From the NCBI GenBank assembly GCA_902762305.1, contig CACWNW010000001.1:248001-312000 (forward strand): a DNA stretch of 64,000 bases, in the 5' to 3' direction. The notes beneath the pieces were generated by a model. That model worked only from the letters and a program-made list of their open reading frames with translations, had not been told where the DNA came from and searched no databases. Position 1 is the stretch's first letter; every line of letters starts with the position of its first letter. The DNA comes from Fibrobacter succinogenes (GTDB lineage: Bacteria; Fibrobacterota; Fibrobacteria; Fibrobacterales; Fibrobacteraceae). A program made the translations under genes and the position numbers. Below are positions 18,029 through 25,675 of the stretch, in pieces.

Positions 18029-19253
18029 TTAATCCACCAGCACCGGGTTAAAGTTTTCCTTCCACGGGAGGCCGTACTTGGTGAGGGCTTCCATGAACGG
18101 ATCCGGATCAAATTCTTCGACGGTGTGCACGCCCGGCTTGTTCCACTTGCCGGTAAGCACCATCATGGCGCCGCACATGGCCGGCACGCCAGTCGTGTAG
18201 GCGATAGCCTGGCTGCCGAGTTCCTTGTAGCATTCCTGGTGGTCGCAGACGTTGTACAGGTAGTAGGTCTTCGGCTTGCCGTCCTTGGTACCCTTGAAGA
18301 TGCAACCAATGTTCGTCTTGCCCACAGTGCGGGGGCCGAGGCTTGCCGGGTCCGGAAGGAGCGCCTTGAGGAACTGGATAGGCACGATTTCCTGGCCCTG
18401 GAACTTGATGGGCTGGGTGCTGAGCATGCCCACGTCTTCGAGGCAGCGCATGTGGTCGAGGTAGCTCTGGCCGAACGTCATGAAGAAGCGGATGCAGCAG
18501 GTACATGTCCTTCTTGCCGACTTCGTCAAACACGTATTCGCGCTTAATGCTCATGGCCGGGATTTCGACCCAGTGGCCCTTGCCGTTTGCATCGGTGTCC
18601 CAGTAGCTGCCCGGTGCAGAAACTTCGCGCAGGTTGATTTCGGGGTTGAAGTTCGTCGCAAACTTGTAGCCGTGATCGCCGCCGTTACAGTCGAGAATAT
18701 CGATTTCTTCGATGGTGTCGAACTGGTGCTTGAGGGCGTAAGCGCAGTAGGCCTGCGAAACACCCGGGTCAAAGCCGGAACCGAGCAATGCCGTAAGGCC
18801 GGCCTTTTCAAACTTTTCCTTGTAAGCCCACTGCCAGCTGTAGTCGAAGTAGGCGCTGAAGCCCTGTTCCTTGCAGCGCTTGTCGTAGACCTTGCGCCAC
18901 TCGGGATCGTCGATGTTTTCGGGCTCGTAGTTCGCCGTGTCCATGTAGTTCACGCCACATTCGAGGCAGGCGTCCATGATGGCGAGGTCCTGGTACGGGA
19001 GCGCGATGTTCATCACCAGGTCGGGCTTGTATTCCTTGATGAGTTTCACGACATTTTCAGCCTTGTCGGCATCCACCGCGGCAGTCGTAATGACCGTCTT
19101 CGTGTTCGGGCGCAGTTCCTGTGCCAGTTTTTCGCAGTTTTCGCGGTGACGGCTAGCGATGCAGATTTCGCTGAACACTTCGCTTGCCGTGCAGCATTTC
19201 TTGATAGCAACCGTGGCGACAGCGCCACAACCGATAATCAAAGCTCTTGCCAT
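18029..19253 (-). pseudogene. Carboxynorspermidine/carboxyspermidine dehydrogenase, frameshifted
   Basis: Saccharopine-dehydrogenase-like enzyme of the carboxyspermidine route (putrescine plus aspartate semialdehyde). The frame from 19253 carries MARALIIGCGAVATVAIKKC, MDTANYEPEN, LGSGFDPGVSQAYCAYA and DCNGGDHGYKF, then loses homology after KKDMYLL near 18500. A second frame ending at 18029 continues with IRFFMTFGQSYLDHMRCLED, LPDPASLGPRTVGKT, YYLYNVCDHQECY and FDPDPFMEALTKYGLPW. The two halves together cover the whole family. From memory of homologues, about 17 residues (a HEELES...KR stretch) are missing at the junction, so a deletion that is not a multiple of three is likely. It could be a true mutation or an assembly error. 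Neighbour of speA. Confidence 0.85.
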
Positions 19254-19351
19254 TTTGTGTTTATCCTCATTATGGAATTGTTAGCCCCATAAATTTAGGA
19301 ACTTTTACGCATGGCGAGCGAAGTTCATCATGATTAAAACCACAAATGAGG

Positions 19352-20068
19352 CTAGTCCTGCCGCGTAATCCCCTTCTCGATAAAGCTACAATCATGAAGC
19401 ATATCCTTTATCGCATCCAGCGGGTTAAACATGATGACATCCAATATCGAAAGTCCCGGCACGAACTCGTTGTCGAACTGCTTATACGGTCGCAGATTGG
19501 GATGGATGAACTTCAGCGTAACTCCGTGTTTTTCGAAGTCATCAAAATGGTAAAGGTCCTGCCCACCCACAGCATTCAAGTAGGTATCGCCACCGAGCCG
19601 CCGGCAGAAATCGAAGATGCGATATTCCCGCTTGAAGCTGTCGTTGCCCGGTATTTCGGAACTCCTGATGAATTTCATGCCAATCCCGAGGAACTGGCAA
19701 ACATCCTTTATGGACTGGAAAAGGAAATCCGCGACATTGCGCTCCGGATTCCCTAGAATATTCTTCATGAGGGCATAACCTGCATCGAATTGCGGAGCCC
19801 TGCTGTAGGCACGGTAAACGGTGTTCAACTTTTGGTCGACATCGAAATCCACGAATTCCGTCTCGTTTATCTTCTTGAACGAAGTGATGTGCTTTACCTC
19901 CAGCCCCAAGAAATGAGGCTGACCGTTGACGAGAATTCTGTTCCTCTGAATCCACCCGCGCTTTATGAAGTTGTAGTTGTCCCCAATCAAGAACAGGTCG
20001 GCAGCATTCACAAGTTGCCAGAAGCCTAGATATGGGAGAAAGTAGGGCTGGTTTCCGGCGATAATCAA
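19352..20068 (-). CDS. WbqC-like family protein
   Basis: A 238-residue WbqC-family protein. The hallmark N-terminus is IIAGNQPYFLPYLGFWQLVNAAD, followed by FLIGDNYNFIKRGWIQRNRIL and the C-terminal IFDFCRRLGGDTYLNAVGGQDLY. Family members occur in glycan and modified-sugar clusters, and their reaction is not well established. I choose TTG at 20068. It has GGAG six bases upstream, gives the family N-terminus, and overlaps the stop of the preceding gene (TTGA), indicating coupling. An upstream ATG at 20155 would add an unrelated 29 residues read from the neighbour. Third gene of the operon with the ATP-grasp-like and radical-SAM proteins. Confidence 0.82.
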   Translation of the reverse strand: MIIAGNQPYFLPYLGFWQLVNAADLFLIGDNYNFIKRGWIQRNRILVNGQPHFLGLEVKHITSFKKINETEFVDFDVDQKLNTVYRAYSRAPQFDAGYALMKNILGNPERNVADFLFQSIKDVCQFLGIGMKFIRSSEIPGNDSFKREYRIFDFCRRLGGDTYLNAVGGQDLYHFDDFEKHGVTLKFIHPNLRPYKQFDNEFVPGLSILDVIMFNPLDAIKDMLHDCSFIEKGITRQD

Positions 20069-21285
20069 AGGATATCTCCGCAAGAAACAATACGCTCGTC
20101 GTCCGTCACCAAGGGGAACGCCTTCCTGTCGTCGACCATGTTCGTCACTGGGCAACTGGAAGTACGGAATAGTCCGGAGTCGAAATACTTGTCATCAATG
20201 CAGAGCATCATGCCGCATATGTAATCATTGAAGGGTGTCCCTTCCCATACGGTACGGTACGATTTCTGGTACAGGAACGGCTGGATAATCATGTCCCTGA
20301 TGGAACCGTCATCGAAAAGCTCTTTCCACTTGTTTCCGTCCGTCAATGGTCCGGCATAGACCTTTTCGCTCTTGCCCAGGCGGAAATGCTTGAGTATGTA
20401 GCCGTTCTTGTCCGCATACGCTTTCTTCAAGATGTCTTCCGAAGACTTGTCCTTGCATATCCACGTCTCGATGGCATGCGCCCGCAGGAATTCCGCTTCT
20501 TCGTCGGTAAGGAAGTTCCGCGTAAATTCGGGCATGAACCAGAGCCGCATGAACCGTTTGTCGTGAATCAGGAATACCGTGCGGAAATCGTTGTACATTC
20601 GCGAATCAATCATGGCCTTGATGGTATCCATCGAATAACTCAGGATATCCATCTGGTTCAACGCACTGATAACGAATTTTCCGTTCCAGTCGTTGATGCG
20701 GCTTTCAACTTCGTCAGCTTCCAGGATGGTGACCTTTTTCCCAAAGTACTTGTAGAACGGCTTGTAGAGCTTGATTTCGGAAGTCTTGTCCGAGCTCTTC
20801 AGCACGTAGATTTCCTCCTTGTCGCCGACAATATCCAGCGCGCTCTGCATCATCTGCTCGTAAAGCGATTCCCTTTTGCTTCCGGGATACTTCTCCATGA
20901 ACTTTTCTGCTGCTGCCTCGGCAAAGTACGACATAAAAATCCCGTGACCGAAAAAGCGGCTCGTGATTTCGCAGAGTTTCAGTTCACCTTCGTCCGAGAC
21001 AAGGTAGTCGGGGCGGAAAGTTCCCGCCAGGAAAGGATACTTTCCCTGGTATTCGAGGATTTCCATTTCCTTTTCGGAAAGCGGCATGTACTTGTCCGTA
21101 AAATCGGCGTAGTTTGCCGCCATGTATTCGATGCACTTGTAAAGGATGCTGTGCATGCGGCGCAGTTCCGCGTTCCTTTCGGGCGTAATGACCATCGGCT
21201 TTTCGTGATACCACCTGTGATAATAGCTTTCCTGGTCTCCGTACAGTTCTTTACAGACATTCCAAAAATTCGTCTTGGCAGTCAT
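20065..21285 (-). CDS. ATP-grasp-like protein of unknown substrate
   Basis: About 406 residues. Parts resemble a circularly permuted ATP-grasp or glutathionylspermidine-synthase-type fold. FRPDYLVSDEGELKLCEITSR (about residue 90) fits the strand pair with an acidic Mg/ATP ligand. GYILKHFRLGKSEKVYAG (about 315) fits the ATP-binding Lys region. MIIQPFLYQKSYR fits the closing Gln-containing strand. The start at 21285 has GAAGG four bases upstream. The ORF stays open to 21621, but that extension is only the out-of-frame shadow of the upstream gene. It is 20 bases from the radical-SAM gene and overlaps the WbqC-like gene. A ligase forming an amide or similar bond is the inferred role. Confidence 0.62.
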   Translation of the reverse strand: MTAKTNFWNVCKELYGDQESYYHRWYHEKPMVITPERNAELRRMHSILYKCIEYMAANYADFTDKYMPLSEKEMEILEYQGKYPFLAGTFRPDYLVSDEGELKLCEITSRFFGHGIFMSYFAEAAAEKFMEKYPGSKRESLYEQMMQSALDIVGDKEEIYVLKSSDKTSEIKLYKPFYKYFGKKVTILEADEVESRINDWNGKFVISALNQMDILSYSMDTIKAMIDSRMYNDFRTVFLIHDKRFMRLWFMPEFTRNFLTDEEAEFLRAHAIETWICKDKSSEDILKKAYADKNGYILKHFRLGKSEKVYAGPLTDGNKWKELFDDGSIRDMIIQPFLYQKSYRTVWEGTPFNDYICGMMLCIDDKYFDSGLFRTSSCPVTNMVDDRKAFPLVTDDERIVSCGDIL

Positions 21286-21305
21286 AAAACCTTCACCGCA
21301 GGGGG

Positions 21306-22661
21306 TTACTTCTGGAACAGCTTGGACTGGTATCCAAGACACTGGAAGCCGTTCTGGTTGATGATGGGGATAAGCGTATTCGGAATCTGCAGCTGCTTGC
21401 GGACCCAATAGCATATGCTGGTCGACATGCCGAGCGTCTGCGTGTAGTCCATCATCCGCTTGATGGCCGCGATACAGAGTTCCCTTTCGGGGGCGGTGCG
21501 CCCGCGCTGTTTGCGGTGATCCGCATTGCTGGGCTTCAGGTAGACTTCGTAGAGTTCGCGTTCCAGATTCTTGTCGAAATGCCCGAGCCACTGTCCGAGC
21601 ATGGCCAGGTTCTCCATGCATGCGGTCAGGAATTCCGGCTTGTAGTTGATAATGCCCGCATTATGCAGCTTGTCAAAGAATTCCTTGATGTGTTCGTCGG
21701 TAAGGTAAGGCATGACGATAGGCTGGATAAGCGCTGAATTCGCCTGAATCCCGCGTTCGCGGCAGAGCTTTACAGATTGCAGGCGTTCGTCGATGGGGGC
21801 CGCATACGGCTCCAGCAGGTTCCTGAATTCGGTCGGCATGATGGACACGCTGGTATTGAACTGCATCCTACCCTTGAGCTGTTCGAAAAGGTCGAGGATG
21901 GTTTCGCCCTCGTATTCGTATTGCAAGTGCTTGGGGCCGGATTTCGAGGCGATAAAGAGCCTCGCGTTGGAATCGGGATGCTTCTTGAAGTGCTCGATGA
22001 ATTCCTTCAAAATCCTATGCGCGATACCGGTCTGTACCGTCGGTTCCTGGAACGCTTCCGTCTTCGGGGAGAAGTAGTAATAGTGGTTCCAGTTCTTGCC
22101 ACGGCTCAGTTCCACGATTTTCGCTTCGATTTCCTGCTTGCGTTCCGGAGCCTCCTCGATGGCGGTTGCAAGGTCCTGCAAAAGCACGTTCTTTTTGCGG
22201 ATGTCCTCTTCGGTCACCGGCCCCCAGGGGTCGCCGTTCATCTCTTCGAGCAGTTTGCGCACGTAAAGGTGGTAGTTCTCGTAGGCGACCAGCTTCTGTT
22301 CATGTACGCCATCGGTCACCAGGCAGTACTGGCAGCCGACATTGCAGCCCTTGATGGGATTGATTTCAAACGTGAGCGTCGGGCAGCGGCCCGTGTAGTT
22401 ATGAATTTCAGTCTTGACCTTTTCAGGATTGATTTCTTCGAGGTAAAGTTTCGATACGGGAATAACCGTCTTGTTCTTGACGCGCTCCATGAAGACTTTC
22501 GAACCGCGGTTCAACCCCTCGAGCGTACTTTCAGAAGGAACGACCTTGACTCCTAGTTTGTCTAAATAAGCCTTGTCTACGACAGCAGGAGTAAATCCAT
22601 TGAGACTGTAAACATCCGTCTCATGCGAATAGAACGGTTTGAAGCCGATAAATTCTTCCAT
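21306..22661 (-). CDS. Radical SAM protein of the spore-photoproduct-lyase-like (SPL) family
   Basis: About 451 residues. The cluster motif GCNVGCQYC (C-x3-C-x2-C) lies near residue 110, directly after FEINPIKG, as in SplB-like proteins. YYYFSPKTEAFQEPT and NTSVSIMPTEFRNLLEP fit the SAM-binding barrel strands. The family includes true DNA-repair lyases, but this protein is much longer than SplB in the insert at about 125-200. It sits in an operon with ATP-grasp-like and WbqC-like genes, so a substrate other than DNA is likely. The ATG at 22661 is used; a GTG two codons earlier is possible. Rubrerythrin lies upstream beyond a terminator. Confidence 0.8.
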   Translation of the reverse strand: MEEFIGFKPFYSHETDVYSLNGFTPAVVDKAYLDKLGVKVVPSESTLEGLNRGSKVFMERVKNKTVIPVSKLYLEEINPEKVKTEIHNYTGRCPTLTFEINPIKGCNVGCQYCLVTDGVHEQKLVAYENYHLYVRKLLEEMNGDPWGPVTEEDIRKKNVLLQDLATAIEEAPERKQEIEAKIVELSRGKNWNHYYYFSPKTEAFQEPTVQTGIAHRILKEFIEHFKKHPDSNARLFIASKSGPKHLQYEYEGETILDLFEQLKGRMQFNTSVSIMPTEFRNLLEPYAAPIDERLQSVKLCRERGIQANSALIQPIVMPYLTDEHIKEFFDKLHNAGIINYKPEFLTACMENLAMLGQWLGHFDKNLERELYEVYLKPSNADHRKQRGRTAPERELCIAAIKRMMDYTQTLGMSTSICYWVRKQLQIPNTLIPIINQNGFQCLGYQSKLFQK

Positions 22662-22721
22662 TTTCACTTTCTCTTTCTTGTCCCTTTTTTTTATGTTGTT
22701 TTGCTTTTGTAATAAATTTAT

Positions 22722-22752
22722 AAAAAAAAATCGCCGGGATTTCTCCCGACGA
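22722..22752 (-). terminator. Terminator of the rubrerythrin gene
   Basis: On the minus strand a 9-bp stem with one mismatch (TCGTCGGGA/TCCCGGCGA around GAAA) is followed by TTTTTTTTT. It lies 25 bases after the rubrerythrin stop and separates it from the radical-SAM operon. Confidence 0.88.
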
Positions 22753-22777
22753 AAAAACGTCCAAATTTGCTTGTTTC

Positions 22778-23317
22778 TTAGAAATTTTCTTCGTGAACTT
22801 CAAAGAAGGACTGCGGGTGAGCGCACACAGGGCACACAGCCGGAGCCTTGGTGCCCACGACGATGTGGCCGCAATTACGGCATTCCCACACCTTGACTTC
22901 GCTCTTTTCGAACACGGCGGCAGTTTCCACGTTCTGGAGGAGCTTGCGGTAACGTTCTTCGTGAGCCTTCTCGATGGCGGCAACCATGCGGAACTTCTTG
23001 GCGAGGACAGTAAAGCCTTCTTCTTCGGCGGTCTTCGCAAAGCCTTCGTACATGTCGGTCCATTCGTAGTTCTCACCGTCGGCAGCAGCCTTCAAGTTCT
23101 CGGCGGTATCTCCGATGCCATCGAGTTCCTTGAACCACATCTTGGCGTGTTCCTTCTCGTTGTCGGCGGTCTTCAAGAAGAGTGCGGCAATCTGTTCGAA
23201 ACCGTCCTTCTTGGCGCGGCTGGCGAAGTAGGTGTACTTGTTGCGGGCCTGGGATTCACCTGCGAAGGCGGCCTGGAGGTTCTTTTCGGTCTGGGTTCCG
23301 GCGTATTTGTTTGCCAT
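22778..23317 (-). CDS. rbr: Rubrerythrin
   Basis: Non-haem di-iron peroxidase that detoxifies H2O2 in anaerobes. The product has 179 residues. The N-terminal four-helix ferritin-like domain carries the di-iron ligands: E in [12 protein letters not shown], ExxH in [11 protein letters not shown] in AEEEGF and ExxH in EKAHEERY. The C-terminal rubredoxin-like domain has CRNCG (about 146) and CPVCAHP (about 161). Start at 23317 has AAAGG seven bases upstream; a longer ORF to 23386 lacks family homology. The upstream region contains a perfect 8-bp-arm palindrome (23396-23416), a candidate operator. Confidence 0.95.
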
Positions 23318-23529: not shown

Positions 23530-24363
23530 ATGAAACCGATAACCGAATACAAAGACTACCGCAAGTTTATGCAGGACTTCTACGACGAGCGCAAACGCAC
23601 GGGCGCATTCTCGTGGAGGGAATTCTCGAAACTTGCCGGATTCGCCTCCCCCACTTACCTCAAGCTGGTATGCGAAGGCAAGAGCGGCCTGAGCAAGGTC
23701 AAGATGAAGCAGGTATCCAAGGCGATGGGACTCAGCGGACACGAAGAGGAATACTTTTCTCTCCTCGTGATTCTAGCCAAGGCAACCAAGGATGCCGACA
23801 AAAAAGCGGTTCTGCTCAAGCTGGAAAAAATCGCCCTCGAGCACAAGGTACGCGTTGTCGACAGCGACGCCTTCCAGTACTATGAATCCTGGAAGTATCC
23901 CGTAATCCGCGAACTCGCCCCGATGATGCCCGGAGCACAGCCCCGCAAAGTCGCCGACGAATGCAAGGAATATGTTTCTGCCGAAGAAGTCCGCGACATC
24001 CTCGCCTTTTTGGTAAAAGCCGGGTTCCTCAAGAAGGATGGCGAAAAAGTCTACACCCAGACCGAAAAGGCCGTCATCGGGTCGCCGGAGGCCCTCCCCA
24101 TCGCCATCCGCGCCATGCACAAGGAAATGGGCAACATGGCCGTACGTGCGGTAGACCGCTACAGCGCAAGCGAACGCTACTTCACCGGAATGACCATCGG
24201 CGTGAACGATGCCACCTATTCGCGCATCGTGAACGAAATCGACATCTGCAGCAAGAAAATTGCCGCCATCGCAAACGAAAGCGACAACCAAGACCAGGTC
24301 TACGGCCTGAACTTCCAACTTTTCCCGTTTACAAACAAGATAGAAGGAGCGAACCATGCTTAA
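23530..24363 (+). CDS. TIGR02147-family protein (Fibrobacter paralogous family, predicted HTH regulator)
   Basis: A 277-residue member of the Fibrobacter-rich TIGR02147/DUF4423 family. The N-terminal half looks like a helix-turn-helix region (FSWREFSKLAGFASPTYLKLVCEGK; GLSKVKMKQVSKAMGL; up to about residue 85). A winged-helix-like middle part reads EEVRDILAFLVKAGFLKKDGEKVY, followed by a C-terminal helical region. No signal peptide. Its last 8 bases overlap the start of the lipoprotein gene at 24356. In this family such a gene is often followed by a lipoprotein gene, so a regulator or partner relation is plausible but not shown. Confidence 0.85.
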   Translation: MKPITEYKDYRKFMQDFYDERKRTGAFSWREFSKLAGFASPTYLKLVCEGKSGLSKVKMKQVSKAMGLSGHEEEYFSLLVILAKATKDADKKAVLLKLEKIALEHKVRVVDSDAFQYYESWKYPVIRELAPMMPGAQPRKVADECKEYVSAEEVRDILAFLVKAGFLKKDGEKVYTQTEKAVIGSPEALPIAIRAMHKEMGNMAVRAVDRYSASERYFTGMTIGVNDATYSRIVNEIDICSKKIAAIANESDNQDQVYGLNFQLFPFTNKIEGANHA

Positions 24364-25675
24364 CCTCAAGAAGAATATCTATATCGCAGGTGCGCTCGCC
24401 CTTTGCGCACTTTACGCCTGTTCCTCGGACGATTCCTCCATAGCGGGCTCCACGACCATCCCGAACGCAACCGCCGAAGACGATTCCATTATCGTTAAAG
24501 GCGACAAGCCGATCATTCCCGAACTCAACGAACTCCGCGGAGGCGAAGATTCCACCCTCTACAAAAAAGCAATCACCTTCAAGACAGAACCGGTCTCATT
24601 AAACAGCGACGTGGACAACCTCGATGTCAACGCCTATAGCGACGAAAAGGGAGCATCGGCAACTTGTACCGCTGGCGACCAATCCTTCGATGCAAAGTTC
24701 AAGATTACATCAAGCTACATCCTAAAAACATTGACAATGCATAATGTCGGAGCGGCTTGCGACAGCATCCTCCAAGAATTCCGAGAATCATGCAACACCA
24801 ACCCGAAAATCATCGTGCATGGCAATCACATGGGTTTCTGCACTTCGAAGGGGGATTTGTACGCCGTCTGCGGTGATTTCAGCCACGTTACAATGGAATG
24901 CTCTGAATCCGAGGCAGACGGGACAAAGAAATGCCATATAAGACGGGATTCCACGGTAGCTTTCGACACGAGCCGCTATATCCAGGACTTCGTAAAGAAA
25001 TCTGAAAGTGTCTGCTCCGACATTACCGCCGGCAAGCTTGACGTTTCGGACTTTGACCCCATCGAAGATTATTGGACTCCCGGGCACAACCCCATTGACC
25101 ACCTCGACACAGGCAACAAGGGTGAACCAATCGATACGGCATCGTTCACTCTGGAAAAATATGCAGAGCAATTCGCGGATATTTCCGAAGAAATTACGTT
25201 TGACAGCCTCGTACTCGCCTACCGCATCCTGCCAACAAGCGAAATTGCTCTTGATTCGGATTCATTTAACGGTCTCACCATCAAGGAAGCCTCACCTGGG
25301 AAAGTCGCCAAATACTTTCCGATGACGTCCGCCATCATCGGCGAAAATTTCAATTCCGAGCACTGCGACATCTACACAATCGCTATGCCCGGGTTTCTAT
25401 CGACGGCCCCAATATTGACTGATATCAAAGAAAGCGGTTTGCATTCTACAAGTGTAAAATTCGCCTATATTTTCGCGAAAGGCAATTGCCAAAAGGATGA
25501 TGACATCTCTCAAGTTTTCCTTATAAAAGACTGCACAGGACTCCTCAGTCTAGAACTAGAACTAGACGTCGATTTCATCGTAGATTCGTCATGGACTTGC
25601 GACGAAAACGGGCTACCGCCAAACAGAGAAAAAGACCTCTACGGCGAATGGTACCGCGCAGATCTGCGCCATTAA
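24356..25675 (+). CDS. Lipoprotein translated in overlap with the TIGR02147 gene
   Basis: A 439-residue predicted lipoprotein. Signal peptide MLNLKKNIYIAGALALCAL is followed by a Cys at about residue 22 (YACSS). A Ser/Asp/Thr-rich linker runs to about residue 50. The mature part has many Cys (about eight), suggesting disulfides. No known domain was recognised. The start lies inside the upstream gene, preceded by AGAAGGAGCG, a good ribosome site. A rho-independent terminator follows at 25697-25728, so the pair forms a two-gene unit. Confidence 0.8.
   Translation: MLNLKKNIYIAGALALCALYACSSDDSSIAGSTTIPNATAEDDSIIVKGDKPIIPELNELRGGEDSTLYKKAITFKTEPVSLNSDVDNLDVNAYSDEKGASATCTAGDQSFDAKFKITSSYILKTLTMHNVGAACDSILQEFRESCNTNPKIIVHGNHMGFCTSKGDLYAVCGDFSHVTMECSESEADGTKKCHIRRDSTVAFDTSRYIQDFVKKSESVCSDITAGKLDVSDFDPIEDYWTPGHNPIDHLDTGNKGEPIDTASFTLEKYAEQFADISEEITFDSLVLAYRILPTSEIALDSDSFNGLTIKEASPGKVAKYFPMTSAIIGENFNSEHCDIYTIAMPGFLSTAPILTDIKESGLHSTSVKFAYIFAKGNCQKDDDISQVFLIKDCTGLLSLELELDVDFIVDSSWTCDENGLPPNREKDLYGEWYRADLRH

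Follow-up and report, generated by a model that had tools for sequence, protein, structure and literature searches.

A run of three tightly coupled minus-strand genes in a Fibrobacter succinogenes window (the whole stretch of 64,000 nucleotides analysed here) raises the question of what a radical SAM enzyme, an ATP-grasp ligase and a WbqC family protein, encoded in that order, accomplish together. The original prediction assigned them to a shared small-molecule or modification pathway. The protein families involved, the distribution of the trio and the genes found around it in other genomes were examined.

Gene layout and protein families

The radical SAM and ATP-grasp genes are separated by 20 bases, and the TTG start of the WbqC gene shares the four bases TTGA with the TGA stop of the ATP-grasp gene. 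The three open reading frames, including the spacing of the GGAG motif, were all found as first described (Table 1). The upstream neighbor of the trio is a rubrerythrin gene, located beyond a terminator-like hairpin; matches to the terminator consensus, this hairpin included, are not more frequent than in shuffled sequence.

Table 1. Features of the trio locus in the window.
Feature	Position	Strand	Characteristics and basis
Radical SAM enzyme, trio gene 1	21306..22661	-	451 aa; Pfam Radical_SAM 3.6e-9
Glutathione-synthetase-type ATP-grasp ligase (Cp1B-like), middle gene	20065..21285	-	406 aa; profile, AlphaFold2, Foldseek
WbqC family protein, trio gene 3	19352..20068	-	238 aa; TTG start; Pfam WbqC 4.8e-58
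GGAG ribosome-binding site, 7 nt 5' of WbqC TTG	20075..20078 (approximate to a base)	-	Sequence reading
Terminator-like hairpin, rubrerythrin/trio gap	22731..22752	-	Consensus scan

The middle protein is matched by no Pfam family. Its best sequence, profile and structure match is Cp1B (PDB 9CJN), with E-values of 2e-6 in a single-sequence comparison and 2.4e-13 in a profile search. The AlphaFold2 model of the protein (pLDDT 85.5, pTM 0.86) was compared to known structures using Foldseek: Cp1B ranked first (6.7e-18, TM 0.76), followed by glutathione synthetases at about 1e-12, with YgiC/YjfC and glutathionylspermidine synthetase among the further relatives. The ATP-grasp-like character proposed initially is borne out by these searches, the fold being present in the structure prediction, and the assignment of the modeled protein is secure at the level of fold. 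Amide ligation would be its reaction. Cp1B is an amide ligase of E-64 biosynthesis which couples trans-epoxysuccinate to an amino acid, ADP being released, and depends on residues R139, D141, E163 and N165 (PMC12568646). These align with R91, D93, E106 and T108 of the trio ligase, so that three of the four catalytic residues are kept; a threonine occupies the N165 position in every ligase-family member covering that site. As read from this alignment, the chemistry of the trio ligase may therefore differ or its activity be altered. The two enzymes have fold, domain order and the catalytic R, D and E in common, but their identity is about 17% and their partners differ, Cp1B being associated with an oxygenase and an ANL ligase and the trio ligase with a radical SAM enzyme and WbqC. 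Eukaryotic glutathione synthetase, YgiC/YjfC and glutathionylspermidine synthetase share the ATP-grasp superfamily with the trio ligase according to Foldseek, whereas their identity to it is 11-14% and their Pfam families miss it. In Ruminococcaceae, distant relatives of the ligase adjoin GCS2 glutamate-cysteine ligase genes (L068:6569-9128; also L069 and L070), an arrangement which suggests a glutathione-like two-gene pathway whose second gene has no Pfam name.

The first gene belongs to the radical SAM superfamily, displaying both the Radical_SAM domain and the cluster motif C106-x3-C110-x2-C113, which is invariant in 11 relatives. The more precise 'SPL-like' label of the original prediction has only loose support. 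Among NCBIfam models, those of the SplB-like PA0069 and Rv2578c come nearest and have C-x3-C-x2-C in common with the trio enzyme, but the score of about 39 bits (39.3) lies far under the respective cut-offs of 360 and 430, so that by score the enzyme does not qualify for either family. The trio enzyme further differs by a long insertion after the cluster motif and by an N-terminal region of its own. No close solved structure was retrieved by sequence search.

The C-terminal half of this enzyme was weakly matched by gp53 of phage M6 (hhalign, E=6e-4, probability 29%) and by a phrog bearing the name DNA repair photolyase (E=0.007). For gp53, an SPL-like radical enzyme, rearrangement of a base-linked amino-acid adduct has reportedly been proposed, and both matches would be in line with a similar nucleic-acid modification by the trio. 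The amino-acid transferase of M6, gp51, is however an ADDT protein (PF18724) and not a WbqC, which also rules out kinship between the two, and the trio has no linked kinase or base-modifying partner; this reading is scarcely credible. The weak resemblance of the C-terminal half to gp53 does not define the substrate of the radical SAM enzyme.

The third gene was confirmed as WbqC-like by a full-length match to PF08889, scoring 197 bits against a curated cut-off of 21.3. Its AlphaFold2 model is confident (pLDDT 91.9), and no PDB structure significantly resembles it in Foldseek; a BFVD search with the same model returned a few unnamed viral proteins only. No function for WbqC is reported in the literature searched. 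Foldseek matches of the model to tyrosyl-tRNA synthetase and cytidylyltransferases recur below significance, a hint of a HUP-like fold; comparison to PanC with hhalign, as a test of a PanC-like reading of this fold, was negative.

Distribution, insertion sites and mobility

Among 37 genomes of the same genus (36 relatives and the window's own), the radical SAM gene was detected in 11 and the ATP-grasp and WbqC genes in 12 each, in a nested, all-or-none manner, the remaining 25 genomes being devoid of all three. In the twelfth genome (G017) the copy is decayed: it contains an internal TGA and lacks the radical SAM gene. The confinement of the radical SAM gene to genomes with the ATP-grasp gene corresponds to a hypergeometric P of 1.4e-8 over the 37 genomes, kinship between genomes being ignored. 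Phylum-wide, the radical SAM gene is present in 18 of 168 genomes, all of them Fibrobacter. The genes adjoin one another in other genomes as well, and the order radical SAM, ATP-grasp, WbqC is observed in 17 of the 18, at seven or more sites, the last one being truncated where its contig ends. A PBP-like gene separates the ATP-grasp and WbqC genes in G006. Two genomes have a PBP_like_2 (PstS-like) gene inserted within the trio or just behind it (L028:6090-6938, minus strand; L027:9244-10098, plus strand). A signal peptide is not obvious by eye in the product of this gene, a possible accessory component of the trio.

Outside the phylum, one Ruminococcus MAG contig (L018) carries the full trio, and a Treponema MAG contig, which begins inside the ATP-grasp gene so that any radical SAM gene would lie beyond its edge, displays the end of the ATP-grasp gene followed by WbqC. 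Among the contigs from outside Fibrobacter, two are short MAG contigs and may be misbinned. In 398 genomes sampled from the Ruminococcus phylum no trio was detected beyond the Ruminococcus genome itself, and 296 sampled from the Treponema phylum yielded none, which makes the module a rare one beyond Fibrobacter. The shared pathway originally proposed on the basis of tight coupling gains support from the conserved order, the all-or-none presence and the transfer of the genes as a unit. No description of the module was found in the literature searched, to which it appears to be new, each of its parts coming from a known superfamily.

The trio is a horizontally mobile unit exchanged among rumen bacteria. 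Judged by their flanks, the first 12 copies in Fibrobacter form seven groups without relation to one another. When WbqC sequences were placed in a tree together with outgroups, those of Ruminococcus and Treponema branched within the Fibrobacter ones. No convincing flanking repeats or insertion-element ends were detected around five trio copies. The ligase and the radical SAM enzyme have no copy in viral contigs, the ligase has none in plasmid or phage records and the whole stretch has none in plasmids; carriage by phages or plasmids is ruled out in the records searched.

In the window, the trio occupies the gap between the rubrerythrin and carboxynorspermidine synthase genes. The same gap is empty in G021, where these two genes are 196 bp apart. 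G008 has another gene at this place, and in G029 and G1086 the trio is accompanied there by an additional gene for a lipoprotein. The region (19254..22780 in the window; also L107:2968-4231 and L023:10501-12003) is in itself an insertion hot spot. The carboxynorspermidine synthase gene of the window (18029..19253, minus strand) lacks about 15 codons in its interior and is frameshifted, which reflects either an assembly error or a real lesion; the copies of most relatives are intact with 424 aa. On the other side, a TIGR02147-like gene is paired with a lipoprotein gene (23530..25675, plus strand), and related pairs are duplicated side by side in relatives (L024, L107).

The original prediction also pointed to the adjacent same-strand polyamine genes. 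Their relevance could lie in polyamine conjugation, the ligase joining a carboxylate to a polyamine supplied through the neighboring arginine decarboxylase and carboxynorspermidine synthase. The Foldseek relatives YgiC/YjfC and glutathionylspermidine synthetase, which themselves link carboxylates to polyamines, agree with such a role, as does the codirectional arrangement of the polyamine genes next to the trio in the clade of the window. The adjacency is nevertheless limited to that clade, other copies being located beside thrS, carB, recBCD and other genes, and the polyamine locus recurs in G021 with the site empty. The relevance of these genes is not supported: given this empty site and the presence of the trio at no fewer than six unrelated ones, their adjacency is considered incidental and polyamine conjugation improbable.

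Patchy presence and many insertion sites would suit a small mobile cassette devoted to anti-phage defense, and a WYL-type regulator gene adjoins the trio in G034. However, none of the three proteins is matched by PADLOC, and the surroundings in G034 consist of recBCD and other chromosomal genes rather than a defense or prophage island. A defense system in the proper sense is thus highly improbable.

Polysaccharide-cluster context and proposed function

Rhizobium, Tateyamaria and Bernardetia have WbqC directly 3' of a DegT/DnrJ/EryC1/StrS aminotransferase gene, and genes for glycosyltransferases, acetyltransferases and methyltransferases lie in the vicinity; in one gut contig, WbqC adjoins Wzx and a sugar epimerase-like gene. 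The trio WbqC matches, over its full length, a family of O-antigen and exopolysaccharide clusters whose usual partner is the DegT aminotransferase, whereas its own partners are the ligase and the radical SAM enzyme, DegT being present in G1100 only. WbqC is presumably linked to the N-acylglycyl amino sugar of the E. coli O121 antigen, which is not counted here as evidence.

Two independent placements of the trio inside polysaccharide clusters were observed; most other sites are not of this kind. On a 2.34-Mb contig of G1100, a DegT aminotransferase gene (1.8e-86) lies 24 bp 3' of the trio on the same strand and is followed by a sugar-transfer-associated ATP-grasp (4.8e-42), a PGA_cap/CapA-like protein (4.8e-52) and a Wzx-type flippase (4.7e-89). 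Further 3', glycosyltransferases, a polymerase-like membrane protein, an acyltransferase and a Wzz-like chain-length protein were recognized by eye. G006 and G019 share with G1100 the upstream genes and a downstream arginase-like gene, and contain between these flanks only the trio, plus the PBP-like gene in G006. In the Ruminococcus contig, the trio is located directly 3' of a GT56-like glycosyltransferase and Wzx. The remark that no transporter was seen nearby is answered by the flippase of both clusters, in these two other genomes.

Because of these two placements and of the general habit of WbqC, glycan decoration is the leading reading: the original 'small-molecule or modification pathway' stands as a shared pathway and is moved towards surface glycans. 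The trio is proposed, with slightly better than even confidence, to be a self-contained mobile module that makes and installs an unusual amide-linked substituent on a surface polysaccharide, most likely on an amino-sugar building block. Direct support exists for the coupling of the genes, the predicted fold, the fixed order, the all-or-none presence, the many sites, the empty site and the occurrence in clusters. The steps would be as follows. The ligase, going by its predicted fold, would phosphorylate a carboxylate with ATP and then join it to an amine. The radical SAM enzyme, as its family suggests, could remodel the acyl or amino-acid portion, either ahead of ligation or following it. WbqC, judged by its neighborhoods, would act on or with a nucleotide-linked amino sugar provided by the DegT/DnrJ/EryC1/StrS aminotransferase. 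A stand-alone module such as that of the window would serve, in trans, a polysaccharide whose genes lie elsewhere. A surface glycan modified in this way could also block phage adsorption, which would add a protective effect to the main hypothesis.

Most trio copies, that of the window included, stand alone without adjoining glycan genes, and a free small-molecule product therefore remains the main rival. In such a stand-alone pseudopeptide pathway, the ligase would make a short amide to be tailored by the radical SAM enzyme and WbqC, the outcome being a free metabolite and not a glycan. Besides the isolated copies, this reading draws on Cp1B, the closest solved ligase, whose product is a free pseudodipeptide (PMC12568646), and on the GCS2 genes beside distant bacterial relatives of the ligase. 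Set against it are the absence of exporter, resistance and regulatory genes travelling with the trio, the two copies in polysaccharide clusters and the otherwise glycan-cluster nature of the WbqC family; a free pseudopeptide is rather unlikely.

A more specific version of glycan decoration is advanced tentatively, namely a novel substituent consisting of a Cp1B-like amide formed at an altered metal site, a carbon modification by a new subfamily of radical SAM enzymes and attachment by WbqC, the whole being a rumen cassette found in three phyla. If true, it would reveal the biochemical role of WbqC, a family widespread in glycan clusters, and the trio offers a small expressible system for finding that role. 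The reach of E-64-type ATP-grasp ligases would likewise come to include bacterial surface glycans, and the exchange of such a cassette among rumen bacteria would be demonstrated.
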